A DNA stretch of 64,000 nt from Chrysophaeum taylorii (lineage: Eukaryota > Sar > Pelagophyceae > Pelagomonadales > Pelagomonadaceae): the NCBI GenBank assembly GCA_029834535.1, contig JAQMWT010000683.1, positions 1 to 64,000 on the forward strand, written 5' to 3'. Each line of letters opens with the position of its first letter. The first letter of the stretch is position 1. The notes under the pieces are model-generated. The model ran no database searches and was not told the DNA's origin. It worked only from the letters and a program-made list of their open reading frames with translations. Made by a program: the position numbers and the translations under genes. Positions 36,552 through 64,000 of the stretch are shown piece after piece.

Positions 36552-37149
36552 ACGTGTTGTAACCTTGCGTCATACTGGAGGTGGGAAATGCTTGCGTATA
36601 TAAGGCAGCTGCGAATGCATTGACTCCAAAATGGTTTTAAGCCATGGGACATAAATTACTCGTTCCATGAGGGTGGAGTGTAGTTTGAGCATTTCGCGTT
36701 GTTCATTAAATGCACATAGTCTGAACTGTAGTGAGCGAAGTTCCATTTTGCGCGCTTTTGCTTGTTGTGGCGAATAAATTGGTAGAGTTGGCAACAGGTT
36801 ACTGAGTTTAAACAAAGTAATCTTGACATTATCATCAATTTTACTCTGGATAGATGATTGTCCTTTAAATTCGACTCCACAAAGGTGTATACCAAGTTTA
36901 TCTTCCCCCCATTGAGTCATACTGATGATGTGCAGATCGGGATCGTTATGGTCGTTTTGCTTGGGTAGAAAAAGTGCAACGTCTAGCTTCACATATCCCA
37001 CATTTGGATGCCTTGGGAGAGCGGGAATGACGGTCCTTATAATCATAGCAGGTGTGATACTCTGCGTATCCGTAGCAGTCTGGATAGCAGGTGATAAGGA
37101 CTCGGGTAGCTTTACGATGTGGATAGGATCAGCGTAACGTTTAAAGTTA

Positions 37150-37766: not shown

Positions 37767-39309
37767 TTTTCATTTCCTCCTGTACCATTTTAGAGTCGGC
37801 GGAAGGATTGGGATTCGCTTCCTGCAATTTACCAAACAGGTGGCGAAGAGGATCAACTTGATAAGTAACCCGGTCCATAAGAGACATATTAGAGCGTGCA
37901 TTACGGTTAGAGGAAGATGAGTAGACAGGACGATCGAAGCTGGTACCTTTGACGTTATAATTTGAAAGTGAACCATAGTACGACGTGTCACGGGGTGAGA
38001 ATGTCGATGCTTTATCTTTTGCATTACGAAGCTTACGAGCATTGAAGCCAGACTGTCCAGCTACAGTAGCTAACAACGAGTAAGCGTTGTTTAGAGAATC
38101 GTGGGATTGATGAATAGTGTCCATCAATAATACCTTAGGTGGCTTGGTAGCGGTAGTACCAGGGATGTAAGGGATCCAAGAAGCGGGTTTATCCAAGCGT
38201 CGGTTAGAAGAAAGCTTTGTCTCATTATATATCTTTAACAAGAATTCCAATAGTGGACGAACGTCGTTAGGATCAACTAGCTTTAACAATTCGGGATCGT
38301 GACTCGAGTTGTTACCAGAGCGTGTCTCGTAGAGTTTACACCATTCCAATAACGATTGAGAATAGCGCTCGTGATCCGAGGGATTAGCATATAGACGGTA
38401 GATCTCCTCGTGAGCTTTAAGAGTGATTATGGTGTTATTAAATTGGATTGATGCTTCATCATTATTTAATTGCTTTGCCTGAGATTGGAAAGCAAGGAGT
38501 TGTTCGACAAATACATGGGCATGCCAATTAACATTTAAAGACATTCGATTAAACTGAGATTTAAGCTCAGTTACATCTGCACAGGACACTGTACAAGACA
38601 CTGTCTCGTAGTAATGATATGCTAAGAGTATTATAGCACGTAATTTATTGGGATGTGCGGTAGTTGCATAAATCTTCTTTAGTTGAGGCCACATAGCGAG
38701 TGGAGGCTTTTCCTGGGACTCCAGGTTTAAAAATGTATATAAGAAACCAGCGTAAGTTTCGCAGTGTTTGATCCAGTCAGCATTAGAGAGACCTGTAAAG
38801 GATATGTTAGTTAGAGATGAATCATACACAATTGATTTAGGGAATCGGGTATTTAATAAAGTAAGGACATTTTTGACATCCTCATTTAATTCAGGACGAA
38901 TAATATTGTACGACTCTTGGTAATAAAGTCGTTCAAGTTTATTACGGTCATCAACTGATAATTGGTGCGATGAGTTGACGTGCCAAGTCTTTAAATGCTC
39001 GGGCAGGGCGTCTTCATCAGGTAAGTTTAAATCGTTTACTTGTTCGGCTTTCCATTGAGCGAAGATGATATCAACTTCTTGTTCAAGAAGTTGATTATAT
39101 TCCGGAGCATTCCGGGTGTAAGCTTCATATGAATCGAAGCAGAATAACGCATCCACATATGGACTTGTCATATGCCTGCGAAGCACCTCAATTTGCAAGC
39201 TCACCTTGGTTGAATTGTCTTGGAAACGCAATCCTGCGCTAATCTTATCAACGAGGATTTGTTCTTGTTTGTAGATATCCGAGGTGGATATAATTTTTTG
39301 TTTTGACAT
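37708..39309 (-). pseudogene. Element C gag
   Basis: A long open region (about 530 codons) follows the leader of element C and encodes a mostly helical capsid-like protein. It matches the gag fragment of C' (for example LKTWHVNSSHQL, SIVYDSSLTNISF). No zinc knuckle is evident. Assignment as gag rests on position after the PBS and before the protease. Confidence 0.75.
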
Positions 39310-40191: not shown

Positions 40192-41852
40192 CGTAGAGAG
40201 AGAAATTTGAAATAGGGATAGTACCCCCTATCCTAGGGTTAGTTCCCTCGACTTTAGCACCTTTTGATTAAGAAAACGCTGTGATATTCACACCGGCTGT
40301 CCTCGTTCCAGGAGACAGATTCGAGGACAGACTACCACTGTTCTCACGCTCTGCTGAAGGGTAACACAGTTGAAATAACTGTTCTCTAGGTATTGGGCAC
40401 CAGCCCCGGTATCAGCAGAGCCTCAGGATTTCCAGACGAGTCCCGCTCACTGACGTTCCCGAACCCAAGCAAAATGCCAACCAATCAAGAACTCCAGAAG
40501 GAGAAGACAAAGAAGCTCGCATAGAGGCAAAGCATACAAGGGAGATGCAAGCACAACAACAAATGATACAAGCACTAGCTCAAGCGCTACAAGCACTCCA
40601 AGCACAACTCAATGCCATGCAGACACCACCTGCCGTCGCTGCTGCGACTGCTCCCCCCACTCCAGCTCAACAAGACCCCAAGAACAAAGCTAACACCTGT
40701 AGTGACCCACCTAGCGCCGTCCTCAAGTCAATGGACTCGGCTCAAGTCACGCAGTTTTTCTTGCTCAAGTGGTACTTGGCTCTGATGATTCGTCCCGACA
40801 ATGGTAAAGAGTTCGTCAACAAGTTGATGGAAGAGTTTTGTCAGCTATTCAACATGCGGTATGGCACTACGATTCCGCATCATGCTCGGGCGAATCCGGC
40901 TGTGCGGGTCAACCGCTTTATCACGCAGATTTCTCCGTTCATGCTTCGCCTCAATCGACAGCCGCTGCTGCCGACTGATTACACGATCATGGATCTGGAC
41001 GCCCGACGTTTGCCGAAAACTCGCACTGATGTTGTGTCAGAGACCCGCGAGAAATTGAAGTTCTACACCGCTACGGTGAATGATGCTCGCAAGAAAGCTC
41101 TCCAGAAACAAAGGCTCGTTCGTAATGCGGACCATGTTTATGTTGAATATGAAGAGAGATCGCATGTTTTGCTATACATTCCTTTTCTTCAGAACAAGCT
41201 TCGACCGGAATGGCGCGGCCCGTTTATTATCGTGGAACGCCTGTCTCCTGTCACCTACAAGCTCGAGTCTCTCGACTCTCCGCCCGAACGCCGTGATGTT
41301 CATGTTAGTCAGATCACTCCCATGATGGTTTCTCCAGTGGTCGATCGAGCCGTGCCTAAGCCCAAGGAAACCTTTCGGGGCGATTTAAAGCCCGGTAAGT
41401 TCGTTGTCTTTCTGGTCCCCGATCGCAAACTGTCCGATTGGCGCAAGAAGATTTATGTGGCTCTAGTTTGTGAGCCTTATGATTATGCGAACGATCGAGT
41501 AGCTCTGCATTTCTACTCTGACCTCGGTCCGCAAGACAAGGTCTCCTACTACAAGCCCACCTCACATCTCTCTACTCGCAAGCTCAAGCCGGAGTACAAG
41601 GACGTGGACGGTCGCAGTTTCACCGACAAGTCCAAGGTCAACAGCAGTACCACTCCCTGTGTCACCGACTTCGCTCCGCACGAGATCGATGTGTTGATTC
41701 CCAAGTTCACTCTGCGTAGTGGACGCGTCCCCGAACCCGTCGTCGAGCGCGTCTACAAGAAAGTCTCTTCCCGAGATGCTCATTCAGCCAGGGCTCGTTA
41801 TTCTCGTCGCACCTCTCGCTGAGTGCAGCTCGCAATCTCACTAGGGGAGTCC
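40192..41852 (+). mobile_element. Mosaic LTR element: A-type leader/gag start joined to Ty3-type integrase tail
   Basis: It starts with an LTR/leader (40192 to about 40480) closely related to those at 43908 and 55185 (shared CTCACGCTCTGC/CTCACTCTGC segments and GAAGGGTAACACA). The gag start follows (about 40480-40750), with the PPAVAAA...AP block shared with element A. At about 40750 it changes abruptly to a Ty3/gypsy-like integrase end: DNGKEFVNKLMEEFCQ, then LRPEWRGPF and ERLSPVTYKLE of the C-terminal domain, then a TPCVTDF tail (to 41822). A purine tract (41841-41852) precedes TGTGGCGG at 41853. The central pol is missing, so the element is incomplete. Confidence 0.65.
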
Positions 41853-43301: not shown

Positions 43302-44195
43302 CGATTAGAGCTTCTCCGACCACTTATGGCGCGCGCGATAAGCTTCCGCGAGGACGACATCGGCGACGCGACCTCCTCGCTGACTTCACATCGAGACTCC
43401 CGGCGCACGAGCGTTCGGCTTTGATGACGATGTTGCCGGATGAAGCAGCCAATGTGCAGCTTGCACATGTTTACGAAATGTTGGGCGGTTTCGTTGTATA
43501 CACAAGCCTCGGAAGGGCAGAATTTTTCGTCTGATGTGGCACCTTGGGGAGAGCGATAGGGTCTAGTTTTAGGGTGACTGTTTTCTACAATGCTAGAGGT
43601 AAATTTGGAGGCTAATCCGGAAGCCGCCCACACACTTTTATACCGCTATAGATGGTGGAGGATTCACGACCGAACGCATGGTCCCTGGTTCAAATCTATC
43701 CCTGACTTAAGTGTCTCGACTTTCTTACTCTCCCCCCGTGTCCAGACCGTCAAGCGTTGACGAACACGTCCGCGAGGTATACGTGTCTGGCCGGGACGAA
43801 ATAGCCTCCAAATTTTCGCCGAGGTGGCGCCATGGTAGCGCCTTTGGCAAACGATCGACTCTGAGAATACCGCCGGGGTCGGCGTCCTTTCTTTAAAAGG
43901 GGGCGCCTGTGGCGGTTACTACTGCTTTATGTAGCGAAAAGTGTATGGTCAAATAGGCTAATCCGGAGAAGCCGCCCACACACTCTTATGTCGCTATATC
44001 AACACCGTGCTGTCCTCGTTGTTAGGAACAGGACAAGGGCAGCTCTACCACTGCTCTCACTCTACCGAAGGGTAACACAATCGAAATTACTGTTCTCTAG
44101 GCTCTAGGTATATGGGCATCCGTCCGGTATCGGTAGAGTACCATGATTTCCAGTCGAGTTTTGCTCGCTGAAGTTCCTGAACCAACAAAAACAAG

Positions 44196-47100
44196 ATGGC
44201 CACTCGCAATCAAAGTAACCTAGATCAAAGACAAGAGATACAAACCCTGAAATCGGAGATGGACACTCGTATCGCAGCCGAGGTTACAGCCCAGGTCGCA
44301 GCCGCTGTCGCCGCACAGATGTCAGCCAACACCCCACCACCTGCCGTCGCCGCTGCATCTGCCCCCCCCCCACTACGTCTCAACAAGACCGCAAGAACAA
44401 GGCCACCACCTTCTCGGACCCCCCTCGCTCTGTCCTCAAGTCCATGGACGGCGCTCAAGTCCCCCCCCAAATGCTCTCTTACCATGTCATGCCTTTGTTC
44501 GTCGAACATCTCATGCCCGAAACAGGCATAACTCAATACTTCCTGCAAGGCCTCTACACGTGGGAATCCGTCATACGCGGATCTAGCGGCCTAGCAGACG
44601 CTCTCCTCAGTCACTGCATCGAAGAATACGACAAAAGCCCCGCACTCCACGCCATATCTGGCAACACGCCGGATTTTCAAGGTCGCCTGGTCTACTACCA
44701 GGGCGTATACCGCAAATTCGGCAAGGACTTCCTTGACAATATATATGAGCCCAAACTCAAAGAACTCCAAGCACAAGATAAAGACACCATCGATTCGTCG
44801 AAAGGAAAGCTCTATCCTATCACGCAACCTCACCTCGAAGATAAAGAAGCTGATTTCATCGTCTACCTCCGCGCGACCGCACACCCTCTATTCCGCCGTT
44901 TTCTGCACGCCGGTCGCGACTCTGCCAAGCACCCTGCATACGACGAGATCGACAAACTCGGACCCTCTCACCCCATAGGCCTCGAATTCAGACACCAAGT
45001 TTGCTTCGCTCTTGACAAGCACACGGGCCAGAACCATGTCCATCATGCTCACTATGTTTTTAATTCGTCCCTGGAGGCGCCGTTCAACCCGAAGATCCAC
45101 GAACCAGCGCACTATATAGACTATATGCGCCATGTCCAACAGCAACTACGTCAAATCACGGACGATCCTTCTCTCCTATTCGACGACGACACGATAAAAG
45201 AAAAAACTCACAAGATACTCCGCCTCAAGTAACCTCCAAGTTTACTTGACTCCCGCGCCCCAACTCACATCAAAGGCTTCGCCCGTCTAGCTAACTGTCT
45301 TCGTACCCTGAACGACTCTCAGCTCCTCGACGAAGATAAGGCCGCGATTCATCATCTGCCCAAGCTAATTGCCCGCATCACGGTTATATCAACCTGTGAG
45401 CGCAACTTTTGGGCTCACCCCGAGCCTCATCACACCCTTAACTTCAAGCCTCTCCGCTTTGTCACCGGCTTCGGTCGTCTGCCCACCAAAGACAAGACAA
45501 CCCTCGCCTCCGTTCCCGCCGTCATGGTTTTCATTTCACCGAAGATGACGATGGCGCGTCTCCCCCCGAAGACGACATTCCTCCGGATCCAGATGAAGCA
45601 TCTCCTGAAGATGCCGACCTTGTCGACGCCTTCCTCACAGAAGCCAATCTCGACCCATACGATGATAACGCACTCATCCAACAACTCCACGCTTATCGCA
45701 AGAAACAAGTATCTCGCCACCCCAATAAAAATTCACCCAACAAGCCCCCAAATCCCCGTTCACCATCATACTACGACTATGACTCACGTATTTCCGGAAA
45801 AGTGAACAACCGACCTGGAAATTTCCGGGAACTTCCATATTTTCCCATTTCCGTGGAAATTCCGGGAACTGGAGAGGAGATTTTCGGTCACCTGGCGGAC
45901 TGGGCCCAAAGTGGCTAAAACGCGCAATAGAGACACGTGGGTGTCCACTAAGGTGTCTGCGACCGCCCCCAGCGCGGGGAGTGCGGTGGTGTGAGCACGC
46001 AAGGCGTTCAGTGGTTTTTGGAAAGTCTTTGAAGGTAAGTGCTAATAAGAGGGGGGGGGAGTGTGAACGTGAGCATGCGGGGGGCTCGGTGACTTGCTTG
46101 AGTGTTTCGTTTAACTTCGATTGCAACGCTAGCAGCGTTTCAGTCGCAACGGTAGAGGCTTTGAGAGCTGCGAACCTCAGTCGTCGAAAGGCTGTCGTCG
46201 ATGCGGCGGCGCTGCCGAGGAGTCTCATCGACGTCGGCACCATCTAGGATAAGCGGCCGGCGGGAAGAGGCAGCAGAGGCAGAGGGGAGTGTCTTCTTCT
46301 AGCACCAGCAACCAGCCTTAACAATCGGAGTTCGACTGTCGTCCACATAGTTTTCGAGTTTAAGCCCGTGCTGACAAGGCGCGTTGCTGTCCCACCGAAC
46401 GTCGTAGTTGTAGACCCGGGCCCGCGGATTGAACTTGACCACCCTCCCGAACCACCACAGATGGCTCTCAAATGTCGTCGTCGAGGTGTCCAAGCAGCAA
46501 AGTAGAACGTAGAGCGGGATCTTTTCGTCCTCGCGGAGAAAGGAAGCCGGCTTGTCGACGAACGAGAAGCCTGGAGGAACTTCAAACTCATCGAAGTAGA
46601 CCGCACCATCTTGCTCTTCGTCTCTCCCGTCATCGTCGTCTTCCAAATCAAGATCTTCGTCGTCCTTGCGGCCATTGTCGTCATCGTGGCTCTCACCCGG
46701 CAGATAGTCCCCGATGTTCGCGCGTCGAAACTCTAGACCACAATGGGTCCGCTATGAGCGTCAGCTTTGTCTTGACGTTCGCCGCGACCGTCAACTTCGA
46801 CGGGATCGTCCGTGTAGAGGTTCCAGGGGCGTCCAGCACCGCCTCTTCTTCACTAAAGAACGCCAACACTTTCAACCCTTTGTCCCTGAAAGGTTGACCC
46901 CTGCAAGGTCCACTCAGCGCCTTGTGAACCGCGGGGGGGACCTCCCGCCCATCCCGCTCGAGCGTGTGGCCCATGACACCAACACGAACGTGCACACCGG
47001 CGCTCTCACTAAGCGGCCTCACAGTGGGCGAGCGTGGAGCCCTTGCGCGCGCACTACACACTGAATATTCATGATTTGACGCACTTTTCCAGTCTCCGAG

Positions 47101-48449
47101 AGGCCCTTGGGGACTTCTAGGAATTTCTGGAAGTTTCTATTTCCAGGAAGTTCCATAAAAGTTCCATTTTCTTTTCCGTGCGAGTCACAACTACGACATC
47201 AATAGTGAGTTTCCGCAGGTTAGAGCCGAAAAAAAGAATATAGAGCCGTTTGTAGTCCGCTGCATTTACGTGTCAACGCCTGGAAAAGCGTGACACGTGT
47301 GCGATTACGCAAGCACTTCAACAAAAATGGCGCGCACAATCCGCCGCAACCTTCACAGGGCGATGCGCGCCGTGCGGCGTCCTACGGTGGCAAGGCCGCT
47401 GCCGAGGGTCCCTGTGAGACGGCGCATGACGGGGGCTGAACGGCGCAGGTGGTGTTTGTGGCCTTGGTGAACTCCGCGCACAAGTCCCCCCACATCTCGT
47501 CCTCTCCTTCCTCGCGTTGAACGGGTCGAAGGCCACCCAGTTGCGGACGATGGTCTCCTTGATCTTCGGGTCCGCCAGGTGGTTGCCGCTGAACGACACC
47601 TTAGACGCGACGGACATCTCAAACCGCATCACGACGCCCGCCGTAGCTAACCCCCATTTTGTACCACCCTGCGGTGCCTCCCTTCCACGCCCGCTCCGCA
47701 TTTAACCTTCGAGTTTACTCTTAAACCCCGATTTTGTTGAAGTTATCGAAAACGTCGAAATTGAAAGCAAATTTTCTGTGCTGACCTTTCTCGATAAAAT
47801 TGTAGAGCCGTTACATAGCCGTTTTAGAGTCGTTGAATGACCGTTCGTTTTTTTTTTCCGGGTTTCAGCCCTGCGGAACCTCACTTATGACAGTCCCAAG
47901 CCCGAAGCAGCCCCGGTCACCCCCACCAAGCATAAGCCGAATCCCCGTGTTCCTACTGTCACCCCCGATAAACGCGAACACCCGCACCTCCGCAAGGTCA
48001 CCTTTCCCACACAGACGCACCCCCCCAAGCCACCCACTCCTGACCAACGATTCAAGGTCCCAGTACGTGATGTCCGTCGCAAGCTCCAGACAATCCGCAA
48101 CCTCAGTCAAGCCGGCCGCCAACACACTTCCAACTCTGAACGCAGGACCAAGCTCATCAACCTCATCACCACCATATCTGACGAAATTCTTCTCTCGGAG
48201 GCTGACACCGACGCCGCCGACTTCCTTCAGCTCCTCTACACCGATGATCAAGCGGACGAGGGCGCAGTCGACGACGGCTCATCTTATGATGACCAAGGTC
48301 AACTCGGTTTATACGACGACCATGACCAACTAGGCTTATACGACGATCAAGTTCCCGAAATCGAAGATCCAGCCGGCTCAATCGAAAACTACGTACAACG
48401 TCATCGAGACTACATACGTGCCCTTCATCAGAGCCAGCTTTCCCACTAA
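44196..48449 (+). pseudogene. Element A gag (interrupted by a 2.1-kb insert)
   Basis: The first part (44196-45240) encodes a helical capsid-like region, with YFLQGLYTWESVI and HYIDYMRHVQQQLRQITDD. After the insert, 47886-48449 encodes a basic proline-rich segment and an acidic end with a repeated GQLGLYDD motif. The same regions occur in element B (57624-58878). Identification as gag rests on position and on the polyprotein order. Confidence 0.75.
45784..47885. mobile_element. Unclassified 2.1-kb insertion in element A gag, TSD TATGAC
   Basis: The gag of element B is continuous where element A has this extra sequence. It is flanked by TATGAC at 45778-45783 and 47886-47891, a likely 6-bp target-site duplication. 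Minus-strand frames at 46299-46646 (YNYDVRWDSN, LKLENYVDD), 46693-47061 and 47318-47701 (FSGNHLADPKIKETIV) look protein-like but are not in one frame, and I cannot name the family. Related AATTTCCGGGAACTTCC-like blocks lie near the left end and near 47110-47170. No clear terminal inverted repeats or poly(A) were found. Confidence 0.6.
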
Positions 48450-48511
48450 CGGTTGACGACGACGTCTGTGCCGCCAACCAATATATACTGAATCAGGCAC
48501 CAAGCCTAGCG

Positions 48512-48850
48512 ATGACACATTTTCCAACATCATCGACTATTTCCCGCAGAGTCGCAGTTTTCGTATGTGCCGCCTACACCGCAGGGGAGCCCCAGAAGAA
48601 GACACATTCTCTGCACGGATGCAACGGCCCCGGCACCGAATTATGTTTGCTTGACGGCGGAGCATCTTTTTGCTTCACTCGCACCACAACAAACATGGTT
48701 CAAGAATCCATACGCAGGATTCCCGAGCATACCATCCGCATGGGAAGAGGCACTCTCACCAGCAGTTTCATAGGTATAAAGCCACAATATCTGCAAGCTG
48801 CAGGTCTCTCCTCACATGACATTAAAAGCTCTACTGGCCACGCATCATAG
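48512..48850 (+). pseudogene. Element A protease region
   Basis: LLDGGASFCFT (about 48650) matches the retropepsin D-[ST]-G-A-S active-site block, and the following IRMGRGTL strand suits the fold. Element B has LIDGGASFCFT in the same place. In LTR elements this protease cuts the polyprotein. Confidence 0.65.
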
Positions 48851-49099
48851 TTGGTTTTCCTAGTCGTCCCACATTTCCGACCACGTTTACAGGTTATAGC
48901 GACATCGCAGTTGAAAGCTCTAAATGTTCAGGCAACGGACCCTCCGCTGCCGCACAAGCCAAACTTGTATGAAATTCGGCCAAATTCCATTTCGGACCCT
49001 CATGACTACAAAACACTTCTAAAACCACTGCTGTAGTTGTCGCTCATAGACAGACGAACGGCCTCCTGTCACTGCCATCTCATCCTAAGAATACATTCG

Positions 49100-50960
49100 C
49101 CAATGTGGTCAGCTTTCACACTCGTCGCGAAATGTCCCTCGAGGATGAAATCGCTAACATTACGCAAAAAGTCGCCACAGCGCGATCGCAGTCTCACTTT
49201 CCAGATTTCGCTAAATTGCAAGCCCATTCTGCTTTTCTGACGGAATTTTTCAAGCTGCCGTGCCCCTACTTGGATTATGCACTCACTGGCACCGCGGACC
49301 TCTCTGTGTTCACACAACCCCCTCCGCTGCATACTGCCATTATCGCAGGTGGACTCCATCATAAATGCTTCACCTCTTTTCGCAAACGCTTCGACAAACG
49401 CATTACTGTCGTTGTCACCTGTGAAATCAATCCAACCATGCACGCTCGCGCGCAACAATTGTTCCCATATGCTCAGCATTATAGGGATCTCAGGCAAGTT
49501 ACTGCCGTTCTCCAAACCGGCAAACTACGACTGCCTCGACTTGACATGGCTGTATTCACCCTGCCCTGTCAACACCTCCGCGTAGTGAAGGAATATGATG
49601 GCTATGCAACTCCAGCGACTGCCGATCTCTTTGTCAAAGAGGAAATTCGCTTCGTTCGTTGCACGCTCCCGACATACACCATTGTCGAGAACGTTCCACC
49701 TAACCCGAGAACTCATCACGAATATACGCAACTCGCCAAACACTACCAAATTATGGGCTACTTCCGACACTCCGGTGTCTACAACGCCTCAGCCTTCGGC
49801 GACGCTATAAGCAAGCACCGATATCTCGCTGTCTTCGCTCGGCACCCGCTAGATGGCTACAATCTCAAGAAAACCGCCTCCTCCTGGTTGACATCCCCAC
49901 AGAGCATGGTCCCCTTCTTGGACCCTAGTCCCACCATCCGAGAAGATCTCTGGATACCCACCCGCCCCCGCCCTTCACGGCACTGTGACCCGCTCAAATT
50001 CGGATTACGATCAGCACAAGGCTGTATTCTCGTACACACCCGCCAATGCAGCTCAACTCTCGATTTCCGAAAATGCGCGCATCTGCCAAATGCTCGCACG
50101 CCTCAAGCAGCCCTTCATGGATCTTGGACTGGACGCAGACGGCAACTCCTATGCCTCCATGACTTCCATCCCACATCTTCTGGTATTTACACTGCTGCAC
50201 AACCATTTGCAGCAACAAACCACTCTCGCCTCCTGGAAGACGCTTCGCTGCTTCCACGCTCCCGAGTCAAAATGCGCCTACCAGCTGGATGGACTCGTCC
50301 CCGGCACCGCTGCTATCGCCCATGCGTGCAGCTACTTCACGAGCGCCTCGCTCACGCTCCATTCGCACCCCCCCCCAGATCCTGGACTGCTCCCACCAGA
50401 CTGCCGTTTTCTCGCCGCAACACGCCGTCTCTCTGTCCGTCCCCAAGGGCACCGCTTTTCTGGTCGTGGCTTTCAACACCTCCTTACCTGCCGCGCACAA
50501 CTGCTCGCGTCCCTCCAAGTCGGCCCACTACATGAATCGCTCGCACCCCGGCTTTGCCGCGATCGATACACGAGGGCGCATCACTCTCGACGACCCCACG
50601 GGACTCGTAATGTCCGAAGCACGTCCCACTTACGCGGACTATGTCGGTCACATCGGCGACACGCTCCAGGAAGGCACTAGGTGGTACTCGGTCACTGGCC
50701 CGTACCCCACCAATACGAGTTATACTCCAATGCACTACTGCTGATCTCCCCCAATCGAATCCGATACGCGACTCTCAACGAAATCGCAAAATTTGGACAC
50801 CATTCGGACCCAGAGCTCCTCCGCTTGTTCCGCCAACACCCGCCGTTCTTCGCGTTCAAGGCACTGGCCAACGCTGTCCCACACAACATGCTCCAGGTCA
50901 AGTACAGCGCTGTCCTCGCGCATCACGTCTCGCATCACCATATGAACCTTCACATCGAAT
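49100..50960 (+). pseudogene. Element A C5-cytosine DNA methyltransferase domain
   Basis: Between protease and integrase lies a C5-DNMT domain. A motif I-like AIIAGGLHHKCF is followed by VVVTCEINP, the SAM-binding acidic strand. Motif IV FTLPCQHL has its PCQ at 49564-49572, and motif VI TIVENVPPN has its ENV at 49687-49695. Motif VIII is FGDAISKHRYLAVFAR (about 49795-49842). Motif IX is RIRYATLNEIA (about 50756) and motif X is ALANAVPHN (about 50861). The roughly 300 codons between VIII and IX occupy the target-recognition position. Enzymes of this family transfer a methyl group from SAM to cytosine C5. Key catalytic residues are readable, but the domain sits in a broken element and is treated as a fossil. 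Confidence 0.85.
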
Positions 50961-51049
50961 GGGACGCCCTACGCAATGGCATTTCTAGCCCAGAAGACAT
51001 CTGTAAGGTCACCGAATTCTTCTCCAACATCTCCGGCCGCCTCCTAGCA

Positions 51050-52190
51050 GTTGAAGAACTCCACCGCACATCACTATTCAGTGATGTTGCAGACGCTCAC
51101 CACGCCGCGATTCAAAAGTCGCCCAACTCGACAAACCTCGAAACGTTACTCGCCGAAGCCACCGTTGCAAAAGCCAGAGTCGACAAACGAGCCACCCCCC
51201 CGAGCACACCGACTGTCGCGCTGCCTCATTTCCACAAGCCTGGCACCACTCAGCACGCCCAAAGAGTGCACCTGGAGACTCGCTGGCACCGCATTCACCA
51301 TCAACAGCCCGAGGTTCTTCGCCGCACGATCGCAGCTAACGTCACTAACCTCCGCCCAGCCGATGATCGGTATCTGCAGGACTGCACCGACTGCAAGCGC
51401 TGCCAGTCGCACGTCAGTTTCAGCCACAAGAACACTTCTTGGTCGCATGACGAGCTGCCTATGCCCCTGGTCAACATCTCCACATGGATGTGTCCTACCC
51501 GAGCATCAGTAAATGCTATGGTGGATTTCGTTACATCATGCACTTCGCGTGCGTTATATCGGCCCACAAATGGGTATATTTCTTGCGAAAACTAGACGCA
51601 CAGGACGCTCATGCAGGAGTCCTCTATGTGGTCAACGTCGTAAACGTCGAATTCGATGTACATGTGAAGATGATATCATCAGACGCATTCTCGACAGTCC
51701 GCTCCGAAGCTTTTCACCCGCTCAAAGTGCAACTTGGCATCCAGTTCCAAATCATTGGTCGCCAGCTACACCAGCGGAACTTAGCGGAATATATCATAAA
51801 GGAAACACCCGGGGCACCGTCATTCGCCTTCTGAATATGCGACACGTTCGCATTGAAGGGAAACACATTAGCGCCGAGTATTACCATCCGTTTGCTCTAC
51901 TGCACAAGATCCAAGCCGACAACCCACGCTCCCATGGACTGGCTTCGCGCACCCACATGTCTTGCACCGTCCCCAGGCACCATGTCATCAAAGGCACCAC
52001 TCTTGAAACTCCTCCCGTTGGCGAACCAGTCACTTTCGTGTACCCGAAAAGCCAGAAGATGGTGCCCTCCAGCGTCTCGGCCTCCTACTTCCACAGCAAC
52101 AATTATCTGCCTAACCTCCCGGGCACTGACATATTTATCCGCGATGTCCACAGCTCCATCGTGCTTGTACATCAAGGGAAGTAAGGGAAA
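51050..52190 (+). pseudogene. Element A integrase region
   Basis: An HHCC zinc-binding remnant (WHRIHH, then CTDCKRC near 51390) precedes a core that starts MDVSYPSISKCYGGFRY with the first Asp near 51487. ISSDAFST follows with the second Asp, then a NLAEYIIKE segment that may hold the Glu. The order fits a copia integrase, although the spacing is unusual. Element B shows the same series at 62940-63440. Confidence 0.7.
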
Positions 52191-53135: not shown

Positions 53136-54171
53136 ATGAGTTCCGCCCTCTTATGGGGCGTCTCTGCGCACCAGCACTACCATATAGCTTCTCGTCATAG
53201 ACACGCTTTCATGCTTGACTCCGGCGAACTCGGTCACCTTTTTCTAAGTCAAAGTGATCCCAACCAAGACATTCTTCAAGAACTCATGGACTATGACTTG
53301 CAGCACATCGACCATGTCGTGTTACAGCTCGTGACTGCTGATGACATTGTCTATGAGCCTGAGAAAATGGTCGAACTCAAGGGCATCAGCGAAGAAGACA
53401 AGCTCACGCACATCGCTTCAATTCGCAAGGAGATCGAGGGACTATGCTCTAATGGCGTCTTCACGCTGGAGCCATTGCCGCCGGATCGTTCGTCAATATC
53501 GACGAAGCTCGTGAGGAAGGTCAAGTATTTTGCTGACGGAACTCCGGACCGCTATAAGGCTCGCCTAGTCAGTCGCCCGAGGTTTCTTGGCACACGTCGG
53601 CATCGATTCCTATGCCACCTCTTCACCGACCGCGATGCTCGCCACCAACCGGTTATTGCTAGCCATCGCCGTGGAGTATAAGCTCCCCGTCGCGCACGCG
53701 GACATCCCACAGGCCTTCATCCAATCGGCGCTTGATCGCCCGGTATGGATCGATTTCCCTCGTGGTATTCGTGTCTCGCAGAAACTCATTCCGCAGATAC
53801 AGAAGAACCACCCAGTGTCCAAAATAGCTTTGCGACTCGTGAAGGCACTCTGTGGTCTCAAACAGTCAGCTTTGTTGTGGAACATCAAGCTCGACTCGTT
53901 CTTTCGACAACACGAGTTCGAACGCTCGCAAGTCGACACTCGTCTCTACATAAGCTGGGATCGATCTATCAACAGATGGGTTCTTCTATCCGTCTCTGTC
54001 GACGATCTTTTGATCACTGGTACCAACACTGCCAAAATTACAACTCTTCGCAGTGCTTTGGAGAAAGAATATGGCAAAGGCACCTGGCACGACAGTATTC
54101 GATCTTTTATTGGTATTGACGTGCATTACAATGTCTCCGCTGGTCATCTCACTATGAATGTCGCAGCCTAG
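53136..54171 (+). pseudogene. Element A reverse transcriptase region
   Basis: Copia RT blocks are readable in order: a CSNGVFTLEPLPP entry with DRYKARLV, then AHADIPQAFIQSAL with the first Asp, LCGLKQSALLWN, and VSVDDLLITG as the catalytic box near 54000. SFIGIDVHY closes the domain. Confidence 0.85.
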
Positions 54172-54180
54172 ATCACCAAA

Positions 54181-54930
54181 ATGCCCGCTGAGCATAAGCT
54201 CAACATTCGCGGCTCAGACATTCCTTTCTCTGAACTGCTCACTCCGAAGCCACCGGCTAAGCTCCTCTCCGATTTGGCTCGTACTCTCGAAGTCCTTCGC
54301 AAACATTTTCCTCATTACTGTGGCACTAGCATCTATTTATTTGTCACATGTCGCGCTGATATTACAATTCTGTGCAACAAATGCTGCAAAGGCATGCACA
54401 ATCCTGAGCAGACTCATCTTCTGCACTTGTATGTTTTACTTCGCTACTTGAAGGGTGCCCCGAATGATTCTTTAGATTATTCATCGGACAGCCCCTCCAT
54501 TACGCCCTTTATTCAGCACTTGATCACCAACTAGCCCGAATTGCATCATCTTAGTTCACCCATTATTTGTTTCACTGATGCCAGTTTCGCTGACAATTCC
54601 GATCCCCGCTTACGATCTCACTCTGGTGCTTGTATTTTCGTTTTTGGCAGTCTCGTATTTTGGTCTAGTAAACGACAGACTCTCACTGCCAAGAGCACCA
54701 TGGAAGCGAACTCAACGCCGCTAGCGCAGCTGCTGATGAATACCAATGGTTTCATAAGATCTTTTCTTCCCACCCCTATTTATTTTCGCGTGATCAAGCT
54801 CTCGCTATCCCCCCGCTTATTGACAACGCTAGCGCATTACATGTTGCTAATCATCCTAAAGTCAGTGCACCCTTTCGTCATATTAACTTACGAGAATCCC
54901 GCATCCGTGACTACCAAGCCAATTCTGTGA
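54181..54930 (+). pseudogene. Element A RNase H region
   Basis: A copia RNase H remnant: CFTDASFADNSD near 54570, HSGACIFVFGSLVFW, and LTAKSTMEAN. It lies directly after RT, and the LTR at 55185 follows after about 250 bases. Confidence 0.8.
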
Positions 54931-55184
54931 TTCGTCCACTCTGGTGTAGTACTCAGTACCAGATTGCGGATCATTTTCCGAAACTTATATCTCGCACTTT
55001 GTTTCACAAGTCAAGAACGCCTATGGTGTTCATTCCACCTCTTCCCCACCTCCATCTCACCAAGTCAATCTCTCATCTTATCTTCCACCATACGACTCCG
55101 TTCAAAACACTATTCACATTCCGGTTGACGGGAAATCTCTTCCTGTTTAGTTTGATCCAAATTTGCTCGCTCCCGAGTTCTATC

Positions 55185-55385
55185 TGTGAGGGCGTAGAGA
55201 TATAAAATTACATAGAGGGTTAGTACCCCCCTATCCTAGGGTTAGCACCTTCTTGTCTTTTATTAAAACCAGAAAAACGCTGTGTTATCAACACACTGTC
55301 CTCGTTGTTCGGAACAGGACAAGGGCAGCTCTATCACTGCTCTCACTCTGCCGAAGGGTAACACAGTAGAAAATACTGTTATCTA
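55185..55385 (+). repeat. LTR shared by elements A and B
   Basis: A single LTR of about 200 bp (starts TGTGAGGGCGTAGAGA) separates the end of A from the start of B. Its TTAGTACCCCCCTATCCTAG block also occurs at 40215-40245, and its second half occurs at 43998-44100. Confidence 0.75.
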
Positions 55386-57624
55386 TGGACATCGCCAGGA
55401 CGAAATCGTGCACACCAATGCAGCCGCCTTCCACAACTGTTTCGAGGCCGCAAACGGCGAAGGCCGATTCCACCTTGTCCCAGAAGCCGTCCGTGAAAAT
55501 GGTACCGTGGACGTCTGCTCCAAGTGCTATCAAGCTTTAAGTTCCGATTCTGCACGAAGGCAAGCTGCGCCCAAAAACACGATCGCCTCTGGTGCCGATT
55601 TCGGCCGTCTCAGAATCAAGCTGGATGACGGGAGCGATCTCGACATGTCGCACCCATCCGACATCGAAGTTCTGCTTCTAGCTCGAGCGCGTGCCTACTT
55701 GCGCGTGCTCAAAGTCGTTGCAACCGGGCGTCGTTCTCGTCTACGCGGCCAAACCATCACATTCCCTCAGCACGTCGTCCTGGACGAAGCCGACGAACAG
55801 TTTGGTCGCCGCATTGACCGCAAGGCCATTGATGTCGCACTCAACTACGTCCTCGTATTCGTTGTTGGTCCAGAAGGCACACGAGGACAACTCGAGCGTA
55901 ATAAGGTTCTTCACATGTTCGACACGCGCATCCGACCTCACGTTGTCTTCAACTTGATGCAAGTGCAGTATCACGCCCCGGACCTGGACGTCCGCAACGA
56001 GAATATCCTCGAACCTGGCGACTATGACTCCTTCCAAGAGAATTTTGGCGACTTCTTGCAAATCCGCCAAGGTCAGACGCGCAGCGACGCCGAAACTTAC
56101 GTCGTCGAGGTCCTCAAACAAAAGGCGCGTCGCGTGCAAGACACGAAACTCGACGAAGCTGCGATACCGTCCGACGTCGCGAACGTCCGGGCCATTGCTC
56201 AAAGTGACCATCATCGTGCAGTAGACGAAGGAAGACGACCTCGAGGCGACGGCGAACAATCGAGCGACAACAACGACAACGTCGCGAACGACGGCGACGA
56301 CCCAACACTAACGGAAGTCGGTCACATCGGTATTTTACCCCGACAAGAACAAACCGCGACGGTCATCCTTGAAAGCATGGAGGCGACGGCGAAGGACATC
56401 ATGCAGAAACTTGTAGACGAGTCTCCGTTAAAAGAGATCCAAATCGTCAAAGAGAAAGAGCGACGCTACGAGCTGCGCCGAGGCATCGTCCCCCTAGATG
56501 ATTATGCGGGGTTTCCGCAAGCGGTATACGATACATTCATCCACCTATTTGTTACGCGTCGCGGTATCACGCTCAACAGGATCATCCCACCCGACAAGTA
56601 CCGTCAGCTCGCGCTCGTTTTCGATAATCGATTTGCACCTTCGATGCCACTCTTGTTTACGTGCGCGAACACGATCCGGCGTCACGACGCGAGGCGGGCT
56701 GTTGCTGGCAGCATCAACGCCAACCCTGAGAAATTCGAGAACTTCAAAGACTTGGTGACGCGCTAAGATTTCAGATTTCAGGACGACGCTCGAATTCGCG
56801 AAGAAAAACCCCAAGAAGAAAGAAGCCAAGAATCTCGTCAAGCAAGTCCATGACTTTATGCAAATCCCTTCCGGCAAAGTACGTGGAGCAGTGCCGAGCG
56901 CGACGCCGAGATGAGACACGTCATGAACGACATGAGAAACCACGGACCGGGAGCCGTCTTCGTCACCCACGCGATGGACGACGTCCATGACGACGACACC
57001 GTACGTCTTGCGTAGGCTTTCACAAAGCATGGAGGTTTTCCCTGTCTCGATGATCCCAACACGCCCAAGATACTCCAGCAACTCGCGTGGCCAAACGACG
57101 ACCACCCCGAAGCTCAAATCGTGCTCGACGACGCGAAGCTCAACCAACTGGCGAGCGACAACCCCGTTGCCACTGCGCTCGTTTTCGACTTCAACAACCA
57201 AAACATGAAAATGTCCTGCGCATAGACGAAACCCGCCTCAAAGACGAAGACTTGCGTCGTCAACCTCCAGGTCTCTTCGGGCGCGCGGTTGCAATGCGCA
57301 TGGTCGTCGAATCCAGCAAAAAGATGGCCCAACACGGCCACTCGATTTTATATGGAGGGCTCCCTCCTCGTATGTTGGCCTTCATCGTGCATCGCGCGGA
57401 TCTCCGAGACGCCATGATCGAAGCTCGCTACACTCAAATTCGGGGTGACTTGCCCTACTCGTACAACGCCGTCGACGTCGCCGAGCGCATCCTTCGCCAA
57501 CCACGAATCAAAGAACGAGGCGATTTCACGATCGCACGAAACGCCCAATCCGGGGAGTACAACCGTGTCGAACTCGAACATCGAGCTCTTCGATGTGTAG
57601 CGCACACTATGACGCACCAACACT
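55386..57624 (+). mobile_element. Helitron Rep-side fragment (DUF6570 plus Helitron-like N domain)
   Basis: The open frame ending at 56766 begins in the LTR and then continues into Helitron polyprotein sequence. It has a zinc-type CSKCYQAL, then an LLLARARAYLRVLKV...GQTITFPQH block typical of DUF6570, which precedes Rep in many Helitrons. The Helitron_like_N region starts with NRIIPPDKY, LLFTCANTIRRHDARRAV and NPEKFENFKDLV, and further segments (VFVTHAMDDVHD, SDNPVATALVFDF) lie downstream with frame changes. The Rep HUH motif and the helicase are not seen, so this is a partial copy. It ends where gag homology with element A resumes at 57624. Confidence 0.7.
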
Positions 57625-58878
57625 GAAATCCATGAACCTGCGCATTATATAGATTATATGCGCCACGTTCAACAACAGCTTCGCCAAATCACCGACGATG
57701 CCTCTCTCCAACTTACCGACAAAATGATCCTCAAGGAAATCCACCAGATCCTACGGTTCAAATACCCTCCAAGCTTGCTTGACTCCCGCGCCCCAACGCA
57801 TATAAAAGGCTTTACTCGTCTTGCCAGCTGCCTTCGCACCCCCAACGACTCGCTGTTACTCGACGAAGAGAAAGACGCGATAAACCATTTGCCCAAGTTG
57901 ATCGCCCGCATCACGGTTATCTCCACCTTCGAGCGCAACTTTTGGGCTCACCTCGAGCCTCACCCCACTCTGAATTTCAAACCGTTGCGATTCGTCACTG
58001 ACTTCGGTCGTCTGCCGACCAAAGATAAAGACAATCCACGTTTTCGCTCCCGCCGCCATGGCCTCCACCTCACCGAAGATAACGCCGACACCTCACCCTC
58101 TGAAGATGAAATTCCCCCAGATCCTGACGAAGCATCCCCAGAAGATAACGACCCCGTCGCTGTCTTTCTCACGGAAGCCAACCTCGATCAAGATGACGAC
58201 ACCGATCTCATCCAACATCTACACGCTTACCGAAAGAAACAGATGTCCCGCCATCAGAAGAAGACCCCCCCGAAAAAGTCGCCAAATCCTCGCTCCCCGT
58301 CGTACTACGATATCAATGACAGCCCTAAGCCCAAGGCCACCCCTGTCACCCCAACAAAGAACAAACACAACCCCCGTGCTCCTCCTGTCACCCCAGACAA
58401 ACGCGAGCACCCGCACCTCCGCAAGGTCACTTTTCCCACTCAAACCCATCCACCAGAACCATCCACTCCCGACCAACGGCTCAAAGTCCCCCTCCTTGAT
58501 GTTCGTCGCAAGCTCCAGATCATCCGGGACCTTAGTCAAGCCGGTCGCCAACACACATCCAACTCAGAGCGCATGACCAAGCTCATCAACCTCATCACCA
58601 CTATTTCCGATGAGATACGTCTCACCGAGGCCGATTCCGACGCCGCCGAGTTCCTTCCGGTGCTATCATCCGATCCCCAGGATGATCCACCCGATGAGGG
58701 CGCAGCCGACGACGTAGATGACCAAGGCCACTTCGGTTTCTATGATGATCACGGACAGCTAGGCCTCTACGACGATAACATTCCCGACATAGATGATGAA
58801 GACGACTCCGCTGAAGACTACGCACACCGCCACAGCGACCACCTGCGTGCTCTACACCGTAGTCAGCTTTTTCGATGA
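57624..58878 (+). pseudogene. Element B gag remainder
   Basis: Continuous gag sequence matching element A at 45090-45780 and 47886-48449, without the insert that splits A. It has HYIDYMRHVQQQLRQITDD at the start, a basic proline-rich middle and an acidic end with GQLGLYDD. It serves as the uninterrupted reference for the insertion in A. Confidence 0.8.
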
Positions 58879-59571
58879 TGGTTGCCGACGACGCCTGTGC
58901 CGCCAACCAAAAATTACTAAATCAGGCACCACGCCTCATGATGAAGAACTTCCCAACATCATCTGACATTTCCCCCAGAGTCGCAGATTTTCTTTGTGCC
59001 ACTTACACGACAGGAAAGACCCCCACAAAGACTAACTCGCTGCACGGATGCAATGGACCCGGCACTGAAATTTCTCTAATTGACGGTGGTGCATCATTTT
59101 GCTTCACTCGCACAATCCAACATTTTTTTCCCGAGTCCATACGAAGGATTCCCGAACATACCACCCGCATGGGCAGAGGCACCTTAACCAGCCACTTCAT
59201 CGGTGTCAAACCGTTGTATTTGCAGGCTGCAGGTCTCTCCTCAAAGGATATCAAAGACCCCACAGGTTGCGTCTTATGCCTCGTCTTTCTGGTCGTCCCG
59301 CGTTTCAGACCAGGTCTACGGGTTATAGCGACCTCTCAACTGAAAGCTCGGAACGTTCAAGCAACAGATCCACCGCTGCCCTACGAACCATACTTGTATG
59401 AACTTCTGACCACCTCCACTTCAGATCCCCATGATAACAAAACACTTATAGGCACAACCGCAGTAGTTCTCGCCAATCGCCAGGCTAATGGTCTCTTGTC
59501 CCTGCCATCCCAGCCAAAGCAAACATTCCGCGCTGTGTTTAGTTTTCACACCGGAACAAAAGATGTCCCTC
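58875..59571 (+). pseudogene. Element B protease region
   Basis: LIDGGASFCFTRT near 59080 is the retropepsin active-site block, followed by RMGRGTLTSHFIG. It matches element A at 48512-48850 and extends further in the same frame toward the DNMT domain. Confidence 0.65.
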
Positions 59572-60207
59572 GAGGATGAGCTCGCAAACATAACGCAAAA
59601 CGTCGCAAAGACACGCTCGCAATCCCATCTCCTCGATTTCGCTAAATTACAGCATCATTATATATTATTAACGGAATTAATCAGTATACCGCGTACTGTC
59701 GTCCACCAAGAAGGCTGTGACTCTTTTCGCAAACGCTTCGACAAACGCATCACTGTCGTGGCCACCTGTGAAATCAACCCTATTATGCGCGCCCGCGCGC
59801 AGCAACTTTCCCCGCACGCTCTGCATTATGCGGATCTAAGAAAGCTCACTGCCGCTCTGCAAACCGGCAAAATACGACTACCTCAACTTGACCTGGCTGT
59901 CTTCACCTTGCCTTGTCAACATCTGAGTGTAATGAAAGACTATGACGGCTATGCCACTCCGGTGACCGCCGGCCTTTTCGTCAAAGAACAAACCCGCTTT
60001 GTTCGTTGCACGCTCCCGACATACACCATTGTCGAGAATGTACCCCCAAACTCCCGAACCCACAACGAGTACACCCAGCTCGCCAAATGCTATCAGCGCA
60101 TGGGTTACTTCGGACACTCCGGTGTCTACAATGCCTCCGCTTTCGGTGACGTCACAAGCAAGAACCGCTACCTCGCTGTCGTTGCCCGACTCCCGCTCAC
60201 CGACTAC

Positions 60208-60488
60208 TAACTAAACTAACTAACTTCGGACCTCTCCCGGGCATGGGAGCCAGGCTGGGCCGGCAGTAGCCGGTCCAGGATCACAGAGCAAAAATCACAC
60301 AGTTGGGGTAGAGGCGAGGGATGAAAGTGCGTGGATGGCGGACCGCCACTGCGCGCGGTCTTGTGCGAGGTCGTGCCACGAGTTGAAGGGGATGTCGCAT
60401 TTCCGGAGTGCCTTGGCGAGCGACCTCCCGTACGTCATCTGCGGAGCCCCCGGTGGGCGCTTGGAGCGGACCCAAGACGCTCAGAGAG
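60208..60488 (-). mobile_element. 5'-truncated LINE with (GTTA)n tail
   Basis: A 281-bp insertion flanked by the target-site duplication CGACTAC (60201-60207 and 60489-60495) and absent from the matching place in element A. On the minus strand it encodes a LINE protein end: YGRSLAKALRKC, WHDLAQDRAQWRSAI, then a stop. A 3' UTR follows (shared with 20706-20787), ending in GTTAGTTAGTTTAGTTA. The duplication, the truncation and the simple tail indicate target-primed reverse transcription. Confidence 0.85.
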
Positions 60489-60640
60489 CGACTACAACCT
60501 CGAGAAAACCGCTTCTCCCTGGCTCATATCTCCTCCGAGCATGGTTCCCCTCCTGGACCCAAGTCACACTATCCCCGGCGATCTCTGGATAGCAAACCCC
60601 GCCCTTCGTGGCACAGTGACCCGCTCCACGTTGGACTACT

Positions 60641-61672
60641 ACAAGTGCAGGCCAGTAAGTTCGCCAGTAAGTTCACCTAGTCCCAATCTCTAACCCCAGT
60701 AAGTTCACCTGGTCAGTAAGTTCACCTAGTCCAAATCTCTAACCCCAGTAAGTTCGGCGTAAACCCACTCGTGCTCACACCCACTCCTTCGAGCTCGTCG
60801 CTCTCGCCTCCGCCAATCTAAGCTGCTTTGATCCGCACACCCCGCTAACCTTTGCGTTTACTCTAAAACCCCCAGTAAGTTCACCTGGTCCCAGTAAGTT
60901 CACCTGGTCACTATATTCACCTAGTCCCAATCTCAAACCCCAGTAAGTTCACCTGGTCCCAGTAAGTTCACCTACAGTGCGCGTGTAGACGTCGGGAGGG
61001 GGCTTATAGGTGTTGCGTAGCACGTGTGGGGTAGGGTGGAGTCGTCGACTCAGAAGAGTATATCCTCGGCGTTGCCGATCGACAGAGAGCCACGTAGAGC
61101 TGGACGTGACAGAAGACGGGCTTGGGCAAGAGGACACCGACCTCGCGGGGCGTCTGGCCCTGGCTCTTGTTGATCGTTTGGCGTCGGCGGGCCTTAAGGG
61201 ATACAGGTTGGAGGAGCCTCGGTGACACGACAAGATCGATCATCTATCTGGTACCGTTGCAGTGGCCGTGCGACGGGTCGAGGTTGCGAAGACTTTGAGC
61301 TCGCGATCAAAGTCAGCATGCCGTTGGTTGTCAGGGAGTCGAAAACTCGACTGTAAAGAGCGAGGCGTCGTCTTCCGACCCAACCTAGTCGGCCGAAAAG
61401 AACTCCGACGCCTCGTCTCCGGGAAAAAAGGTCGCGGTCATGCGCGCGTTGTCAGCATCGACAACTTCGTTTCGACGGGGCGTGGGAATGGCGCGCTGAA
61501 AGAGCCGCCGCGGGTCGTGGAAATAGTCTGAGAGGTCGCCGTAGACGGCTTGGAGGCTCAATGCCTGGCTCGCGGGCCTACCTGATCCTTACCCTAAATC
61601 GAGGGACAAACAAACAAACAAACAAACAGACAGACAGACAAACAGACAAACATCTGTCGACTAGTAGTTAGG
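60641..61672 (-). mobile_element. Helitron-derived copy H4 with PIF1-helicase tail
   Basis: Fourth copy of the family, inverted. On the plus strand it starts ACAAGTGCAGGCC and ends TAGTAGTTAGG, the reverse complement of the ends of H1-H3. The helicase fragment (KSQGQT near 61160) is on the minus strand. Comparison with element A shows an insertion into continuous DNMT sequence without target-site duplication, as expected for Helitrons. Confidence 0.75.
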
Positions 61673-62679
61673 ACCAGAACAAAGCCACATTTCGTACGCA
61701 CCCGCCAACGCAGCTCAACTCTCGATTTCCGAGAATGCACGCATCAGCCAATGCTTGCACGCTCGAAGAAGCCCTTCGCGGATCTAAGACTCGACGCCGA
61801 CGGCACCCCCTATGCCTCGATGACCAATATCTCCCATCTCTTGGCATTCACATTGCTGCACAATCATTTGTCGCAACACCCTACTCTCACAGCATGGAAC
61901 ACACTCCGCTGCTTTCACGCCTCAGAGTCCCAATGTGCTTACCATTTAGATGGAGCCATCACCGGCACTGCCGCCACCGCCGTCGCATGTGGCTACTTCC
62001 CGCGCGCATCCCTCACCTTGCATTCACGGCCCCCTCAGATATTGGACTGTTCACACCAACCCGCAGTCTTCTCCCCAACGCACACATTCTCCCTGGATGT
62101 TCCCAAGGGCACCGCCTTTCTGGTCGTCGCCTATACCAACTCCTTGGCAGCCGCTCACCGCTGCTCGCGCCCCTCCACGTGGGTCCACTACATGAATCGC
62201 TCGCATCCCGGCTTCGTCGCGATCGATTCACGAGGGCGAATTACGCTCGATGACCCCACGGACTCATAATGTCCGAAGCACGTCCCACTTACGCGGATTA
62301 CGTCGGCCACATCGGCGACACGCTCCATAAATCCACAAAGTGCTACTAGGTCACTGGCTCGTACCCAACCAACACGAGCTACTCCAACGCATTACTGCTG
62401 ATCTCTCCCGACCACATCCGATACGCGACTCTCAACGAAATCGCAAAGTTTGGACACCACTCGGACCCGGAACTGCTCCGCCTGTTACAACGGCATCCGC
62501 CGTACTTCGCGTTCAAGGCACTGGCCAACGCCGTCCCGCACAACATGCTGCAGGCTAAGTACAGCCCTGTCCCCGCACTCCACGAGTCGCATCACCATGT
62601 GAACCTTCACATCGAATGGGCAACCATACGCAATGGCATTCCAGGCCCCGGGGACATCAACCAGGTTGCATAATTCTTC

Positions 62680-63966: not shown

Positions 63967-64000
63967 GCGAGCAACCAATGCCAGAAATTAGACAGGAATC

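Follow-up and report, generated by a model that had tools for sequence, protein, structure and literature searches.

How does a DNA cytosine methyltransferase come to lie in the middle of a retrotransposon? Methyl marks on DNA are the normal means by which cells silence mobile elements, and only in few lineages are retroelements known that themselves encode the enzyme writing it. The window analysed here, a stretch of 64,000 nucleotides whose host is a pelagophyte, probably Chrysophaeum taylorii, contains a copia-type retrotransposon (element A) inside which a C5-cytosine methyltransferase had been annotated from the sequence alone. In our view it is nearly certain that a domain of the C5-methyltransferase family is built into the pol of copia LTR elements, in the order gag / protease - methyltransferase - integrase - reverse transcriptase (RT) - RNase H, that it occurs in at least 74 places of the genome and that it has been kept by selection.

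Element A itself is broken (Table 1). The initial annotation let it begin at 48.5 kb; the actual start is near 44.0 kb and the end at 55385, with foreign DNA lodged in gag. The segment 43997-44099, a remnant of the 5' LTR, is 89% identical to the 3' LTR of the same element, the leader aligns by blastn at 78% over 44379-44601, and the first part of gag aligns by tblastn at 78% over 44717-45496 and at 67% over 45493-45777. Compared with an open copy of the family (the C96 copy), pol aligns as nine separate pieces, interrupted by stops and shifts of frame; a break at ~49.96 kb divides the methyltransferase, whose catalytic half (49276-49956) is 77.5% identical to the open copy. That the methyltransferase lies between a retropepsin-like block and an integrase, in an element that also has RT and RNase H, had been claimed as well, and of these parts the integrase and the RT are borne out by their alignments and, for the RT, by a strong RVT_2 match (the rve match of element A, at E 0.004 and 17.8 bits, is below its cut-off of 32.6), and the protease and the RNase H were identified by eye, Pfam giving no match for either in element A. 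In aspartic proteases the second residue of the active site is usually serine or threonine; in element A it is glycine. In the family a putative protease block of the LIDGGAS type is recognizable by eye, with no Pfam match in the window or in the C96 copy; its active site (pol residue ~80) reads D-G-G in most family copies, not D-S/T-G, and DSG in one (L015).

Table 1. Positions within the window of the three copia elements with a methyltransferase or related domain, and of their parts.
Feature	Position	Strand	Evidence
Element A, right-hand remnant of 5' LTR (remainder lost or diverged)	44009-44099	+	77.7% identity to positions 105-196 of the 196-bp 3' LTR of the C96 copy
Element A, leader and first part of gag	44379-45777	+	alignments to family
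DNA foreign to the element (~2.1 kb) within element A gag	45778-47873	+	gap separating adjacent gag alignments
Element A, last part of gag	47874-48440	+	70% to residues 382-576 of C96 gag (tblastn)
Element A, start of pol and aspartic protease block (LLDGGAS)	48410-49015	+	tblastn, 71%; motif by eye
Element A, catalytic half of C5-cytosine methyltransferase, motifs I-VIII (PCQ, ENV), single open frame	49276-49956	+	PF00145
Element A, middle region and motifs IX-X, different frame, broken	49967-51055	+	tblastn, 55%; TLNEIA and ANAVP present
Element A, integrase core	51457-51807	+	86% to open-copy integrase; rve weak in ORF 51451-51831
Element A, copia-type RT	53572-54252	+	RVT_2 E 4.4e-29 in 53569-54168; 83% to open copy
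Element A, RNase H region (CFTDASFAD)	54535-55194	+	by eye: ORF 54535-54930 and tail of C96 copy
Element A, 3' LTR (TAGAGA...TATCTA)	55195-55385	+	72% to full 196-bp LTR of C96 copy
Element B, second broken copy of the element A family, extends beyond window end	57619-64000	+	tblastn
Element B, gag	57619-58872	+	tblastn
Element B, methyltransferase pieces	59701-60207, 60460-60651, 61751-62712	+	tblastn; PF00145 E 3.6e-8 on 59701-60207
Element B, integrase	within 63100-63963	+	sub-threshold rve match (E 0.0036)
Element C, divergent copia element, approximate span	30714-37769	-	identity 34-39% in the RT (31694-32531) and 24% in the integrase region (34122-34550)
Element C, methyltransferase-related domain, motifs I-VIII (SPCTN, MEMTPP)	35844-36569	-	family profile

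The Pfam check that had been proposed for the methyltransferase is significant. PF00145 matches the frame 49006-50532 at E 3.2e-7 (30.5 bits, cut-off 22) over residues 133-283, which correspond to 49402-49854, and the excised piece 49276-49908 at E 4.9e-8; all eight open copies of the family match as well. Motifs IV (LPCQHL), VI (VENVPP) and VIII (SKHRYLAV) of element A lie in this frame and motifs IX (YATLNEIAKFG) and X (ANAVP) at ~50.76-50.88 kb in a second one (50681-51592), so that the canonical order read from the letters stands. Motif I is only partly canonical: the 23 copies that align at this motif read AIIAGG or AIITGG. In DNA C5 enzymes the target-recognition domain sits between motifs VIII and IX, which are ~280 residues apart in the alignment of the family domain; the middle region of element A is, by position only, a candidate target-recognition region.

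Could this nevertheless be a host methyltransferase gene that lies by chance beside element fragments, or was retrocopied next to them? The frames of element A are broken, so the domain can appear detached. In the C96 copy, however, PF00145 (349-475), rve (1016-1110) and RVT_2 (1686-1933, E 1.6e-38) share a single open pol frame of 1951 residues, with the integrase preceding the RT, which is the copia order; rve scores 17.2 bits here, below the cut-off of 32.6, and the DDE residues were recognized by eye. A stop codon separates RT from RNase H in this copy, and a full gag-pol copy free of any interruption did not emerge from the analysis. The C96 copy has LTRs of 208 bp (5') and 196 bp (3') with the termini TAGAGA...TCTCTA and the 5-bp duplication CTCAC on both sides, and another copy (C523) has LTRs that are 95.4% alike and GGAGA on both sides; perfect 5-bp target duplications are thus at hand for two copies, the 5' LTR of element A being partial.

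Furthermore, the domain recurs in the genome (70.8 Mb in 697 contigs), in which a count of copies had been called for. With PF00145 (123 of 474 candidates scored) there are at least 57 places, every one above cut-off: 28 coincide at least in part with a match of the element-domain query, 10 align as element copies, 2 are elements A and B, 9 others have the family RT within 7.5 kb, 1 (C206) is 48 bases away from an element match and 2 are host genes, the assignment leaving aside five (C23, C519, C576, C589 and C371). The element domain as query gave 83 matches that merge into at least 74 places, a lower bound (74 of 780 candidates scored, elements A and B not being among the 74), and 49 of the 74 have the family RT within 6 kb. 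Among the 145 RT matches listed (142 of 1390 candidates scored), 140 show 63-100% identity and five show 42-44%.

Several other features of the window and the genome may be recorded here. The family RT of element B lies outside the window, at C683:65875-66303, and the methyltransferase of this element is interrupted by ~1.1 kb of foreign DNA that includes multiple CCAGTAAGTTC-type repeats (60646-60974). A fragment of family LTR and leader at 40194-40750, 87% identical to the C96 LTR, is a further partial copy, and the segment 40374-41819, with PF22938 (integrase C-terminal) and PF24626 (Tf2-1-like SH3) both just under cut-off, is probably a piece of a gypsy-type element. The frame 55267-56763, which starts within the 3' LTR of element A, has a sub-threshold match to DUF6570 (E 1.4e-4, 22.7 bits, cut-off 24.3); domains of this type are found near Helitron genes. 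A gene for the second-largest subunit of RNA polymerase (L039, on C398) contains an intein-like stretch, the end of which reads VSNGFVTHN and is followed by a cysteine. As to the host, a bacterial-type rpoB on contig C697 matches the chloroplast rpoB of Aureococcus anophagefferens at 73%; its top match stands at 77%, and the lower ranks among the 120 matches listed stand at 58-60%.

Among 25 distinct copies of the domain, counted after removal of three duplicate loci, all 25 have PCQ and 24 have ENV, counts that are biased because the copies were found via their PF00145 score. For the eight of nine open copies that entered the dN/dS sample (L006 was dropped for stops), the ratio in the catalytic half has a median of 0.16 (28 pairs, range 0.11-0.54, the high values occurring at low dS) and lies at 0.11-0.17 in all 13 pairs with dS > 0.5; the integrase region gives 0.12 (15 pairs), the protease region 0.17 (10 pairs), the middle of the domain 0.26 (28 pairs), motifs IX-X 0.19 (28 pairs, highest 1.25) and the RT 0.29 (just 3 pairs of low divergence), all of these ratios being favoured low because only open copies entered. 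The catalytic half is under purifying selection. Given the joint open frame, the LTRs with target duplications, the recurrence in at least 74 places and the selection, the methyltransferase is integral to the copia pol, as the initial annotation had it: it is coded within pol and has been kept there under selection. A separate host gene next to element debris is ruled out by the joint frame, the LTRs and the duplications, and its probability, considering also that the family profile gives negative bit scores to the DNMT5 and DNMT2 of the host, is negligible.

What kind of methyltransferase is it? We compared with the PDB a profile of 17 domains, 15 from the element A family, one from the divergent relative L043 and one from element C. 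The best sequence match is M.HhaI (E 2.2e-7, 33.8 bits), followed by 4dkj, presumably MpeI (E 2.2e-4, 23.9 bits), HaeIII (E 1.6e-3, 21.1 bits), DNMT2 (E 0.03, 17.0 bits), 9baq and 9bap (E 0.22-0.29, names that give no class) and DNMT1 (E 0.6), and no chain named DNMT3 or DNMT5 is among the 30 PDB matches at E up to 1. A profile of eight copies matches 8yf3 alone (E 0.037) and the C96 domain as sole query has no match in the PDB; the NCBIfam model dcm matches at 2.9e-8 and 5.6e-7, both short of its cut-off, and methylases of PHROGs match the domain at 1.1e-7 to 3.1e-9. A weak structure model of the catalytic half (pLDDT 47, pTM 0.39) has the strand-helix order of class I methyltransferases, and Foldseek gives it 11 matches with E no higher than 1e-3 (TM ~0.4), nine of them DNMT1/DNMT2 and two thermospermine synthases, DNMT3A/B ranking lower; a model of the full domain was discarded (mean pLDDT 27). 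The 1951-residue C96 pol has no match to SNF2, which speaks against the DNMT5 class, and no phage-integrase Pfam match, its integrase being of the rve type, which speaks against a DIRS element; the DNMT2 class is disfavoured by the subzero score of the host DNMT2 and the E of just 0.03 of its PDB counterpart. A recent capture from the DNMT5 or DNMT2 of the host is, on the same scores, unsupported. Searches for protein homologues with eight family members as queries, which need shared 5-residue words, gave none at E up to 1e-3, so the specificity of the domain cannot be borrowed from a relative; pol as query gave two matches, on the RT side alone by name and Pfam, and in viral contigs 149 stretches fit a pattern, with no relative among them.

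These comparisons bear on the nature of the substrate. Profile scores are higher for the DNA methylases than for DNMT2, and the ~280 residues between motifs VIII and IX occupy the site of the target-recognition domain in DNA C5 enzymes, both of which argue against the domain methylating RNA, such as the genomic RNA of the element or its priming tRNA, for instance to protect it or to tune reverse transcription. This alternative draws on the C5 fold shared with the tRNA methylase DNMT2, which appears in the Foldseek matches and only weakly in the profile search, and on the suggestion of RNA methylation for SymbioLINE in the accessible text of the 2018 study (PMC5890265); we consider it quite improbable.

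Is the domain confined to one family? Element C scores 24.6 bits against the family profile, the best of 2000 shuffles reaching 10.1, and PF00145 gives E 0.26, below cut-off; its RNase H and protease-like text were recognized by eye. Within 34665-36569 (minus strand) its motifs IV and VI read PCT and EMT. Its candidate motifs IX-X (STRELARANNF and IIANAIPAG, by eye) are not claimed because they failed the profile test, in which 623 of 1245 scored shuffles equalled or exceeded the score. Two of five divergent relatives, L043 (C560) and L044 (C214), were analysed. The former aligns at 24% identity (E 5e-20) with pol residues 142-488, which run from the last part of the protease region through methyltransferase motifs I-VIII, and at 30% with residues 713-821, up to motif IX; PF00145 was undetected on it, and the protease of its family has DTG. 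In both relatives motif IV is AECT and motif VI is EEMTPP, and dN/dS between the two is 0.15-0.25 in three of four aligned stretches and 0.92 in the fourth (78 codons, at the start). The altered motifs may reflect changed specificity or lost activity, both being possible, and since this family has ECT and EMT and yet is constrained, part of the lineage may do something else.

Such observations lend themselves to a reading in which the domain is non-enzymatic, a module that binds DNA or chromatin and that, joined to the integrase, directs integration: it lies directly upstream of the integrase in pol, its motif I is odd in all 23 aligned copies, and L043 and L044 remain constrained in most stretches with neither PCQ nor ENV. 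However, seven residues (E50, D90, C98, F119, E138, G175 and R182 in C96 domain numbering) are invariant in all 17 aligned domains from three families, and these include the Glu of motif II, the Asp before motif IV, the Cys of motif IV, the Glu of motif VI and the Arg of motif VIII; by position, we take C98 and E138 to be the catalytic cysteine and glutamate. Pure binding would not demand invariance of the catalytic Cys, both Glu and the Arg, and absence of PCQ need not mean inactivity given that motif IV of the DNMT5-type protein of the host is TSC. We therefore regard a purely binding function as rather unlikely. Sixteen of the 17 sequences match PF00145 at E up to 1. Because two divergent copia families hold related domains in which the catalytic Cys, Glu and Arg are kept, the capture looks old and, as far as such an alignment can suggest, may predate the separation of these families; a single old capture is the simplest reading, and exchange of the domain between copia families is the alternative. 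Together with the selection, the related domains suggest an enzyme that has been in working use for a long time and is not a passenger.

What, then, could a retrotransposon gain from methylating cytosine? Two methyltransferases of the host were found, a protein that combines DNMT and SNF2 (L028, DNMT5-type) and a DNMT2 (L029), in a scan that intron-split or very divergent enzymes could escape. In the accessible text of a published survey, DNMT5 is present in pelagophytes and DNMT3 is missing from most stramenopiles except diatoms (PMC9998398); DNMT5 of Cryptococcus, as described in the available part of the report, acts on hemimethylated DNA and rejects unmethylated DNA (PMC13297926). We propose that the methyltransferase would be made within pol, after which the protease might release it or it might stay attached to the integrase, and that it would methylate cytosines of the double-stranded cDNA of the element before or at integration. 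New copies would then arrive pre-marked, resembling resident silenced DNA, and the host DNMT5 would copy the mark at each replication; pre-marking would spare the cDNA from recognition by the host and lower the cost per insertion. A role in silencing is, as the initial annotation had already said, an inference. The proposal is supported by the de novo CG methylation that the SymbioDIRS domains performed in yeast, and weakened by yeast tests of the KnitGypsy and SymbioLINE domains in which no methylation was seen and which the authors, in the accessible text, call inconclusive (PMC5890265). It is also weakened by the little CpG decay between copies, where CpG transitions are 1.15 times as frequent as other C/G transitions, a ratio too weak to serve as proof of methylation. 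The CpG observed/expected ratio is 0.94-1.08 in the element versus 1.22-1.41 in host stretches, and TpG+CpA is 1.09-1.15 versus 0.68-0.95; the shift is in the expected direction, and composition alone may be a sufficient explanation. Methylation of the element's own cDNA, the likeliest role of the domain, is, taken by itself, a tentative idea to which we give somewhat less than an even chance; as a whole, a methyltransferase built into pol combined with self-methylation of the cDNA is the best explanation that we can offer, with a probability of roughly 0.55.

A bolder possibility follows from the set of host enzymes found, DNMT2 and a DNMT5-type protein, together with the copying of existing CG methylation by Cryptococcus DNMT5: the retrotransposon might supply the sole de novo DNA cytosine methyltransferase of the alga, seeding the methylome at integration for DNMT5 to perpetuate. 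We rate this as very improbable. If true, the parasite would set the silencing and the host would keep it up; with the related domain in divergent copia families, this division of labour would be ancient. In any case, a host with DNMT2 and a maintenance-type DNMT5 turns the origin of new methylation in the absence of DNMT1 and DNMT3 into a testable question. A caution also follows, in that many algal DNMT "genes" may be pol genes of transposons.

How does the family compare with known systems? The published assembly of Chrysophaeum taylorii (71 Mbp, 702 contigs) comes with a paper in the main text of which the string "transpos" has zero occurrences (PMC10366177), and among the titles and opening lines of abstracts covered by our literature search, most subscription papers being outside its scope, none describes a pelagophyte or a copia carrier. 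Published carriers, as far as the accessible text goes, are LINE, DIRS and gypsy elements (PMC5890265), and a 2019 opinion paper, in its available part, lists gypsy and DIRS carriers (PMC6338049). The same 2018 text has Symbiodinium Copia elements without any DNMT domain (PMC5890265). One sentence in the available part of a 2025 paper, citing the 2018 work, speaks of "DNMT3 members embedded in LTR Copia and DIRS" in streptophytes and dinoflagellates (PMC12344493); it mentions no pelagophyte and gives no structure, and the 2018 paper that it cites describes, in its accessible text, gypsy, DIRS and LINE carriers. Of the two possibilities originally left open, membership in the published set and a separate capture, the latter is tentatively favoured, because the carrier is a copia element unlike the LINE, DIRS and gypsy carriers, the profile matches bacterial enzymes best and no DNMT3-named chain is among its matches.

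A close parallel, according to the accessible text, is KnitGypsy-Dnmt3 of Klebsormidium nitens (PMC5890265), likewise an LTR element with a cytosine methyltransferase inside the Pol frame and under purifying selection; it differs by its Gypsy domains, its Dnmt3-class enzyme and its charophyte host, whereas here there is a copia RVT_2, an ochrophyte host and no DNMT3-named chain at E up to 1. In SymbioDIRS-Dnmt3 of Symbiodinium the methyltransferase is also fused in Pol with the RT, but that element, as described there, has a tyrosine recombinase and DIRS repeats in place of an rve-type integrase, ordinary LTRs and 5-bp duplications (PMC5890265). SymbioLINE-Dnmt of Symbiodinium shares an orphan-class methyltransferase and a multicopy retroelement but, in the same account, is of the non-LTR type and encodes the enzyme in an ORF that lies upstream (PMC5890265). 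Among enzymes, M.HhaI and the bacterial C5 methylases are short and stand-alone (327 residues), whereas the element domain is fused with pol, has an unusual motif I and holds a long stretch that separates motif VIII from motif IX; the DNMT5-type protein of the host belongs to the same superfamily and genome but has SNF2 and TSC, neither of which is present in the element domain. Sola1-1_Ec32 of the brown alga Ectocarpus is likewise an algal transposon with its own DNA methyltransferase but, from the accessible part of its description, a DNA transposon with a predicted N4-methylcytosine/N6-methyladenine enzyme in a ParB-like fusion (PMC12477816). Set beside these systems, the present family adds the copia class and a stramenopile host to the retroelements that carry a DNA methyltransferase.
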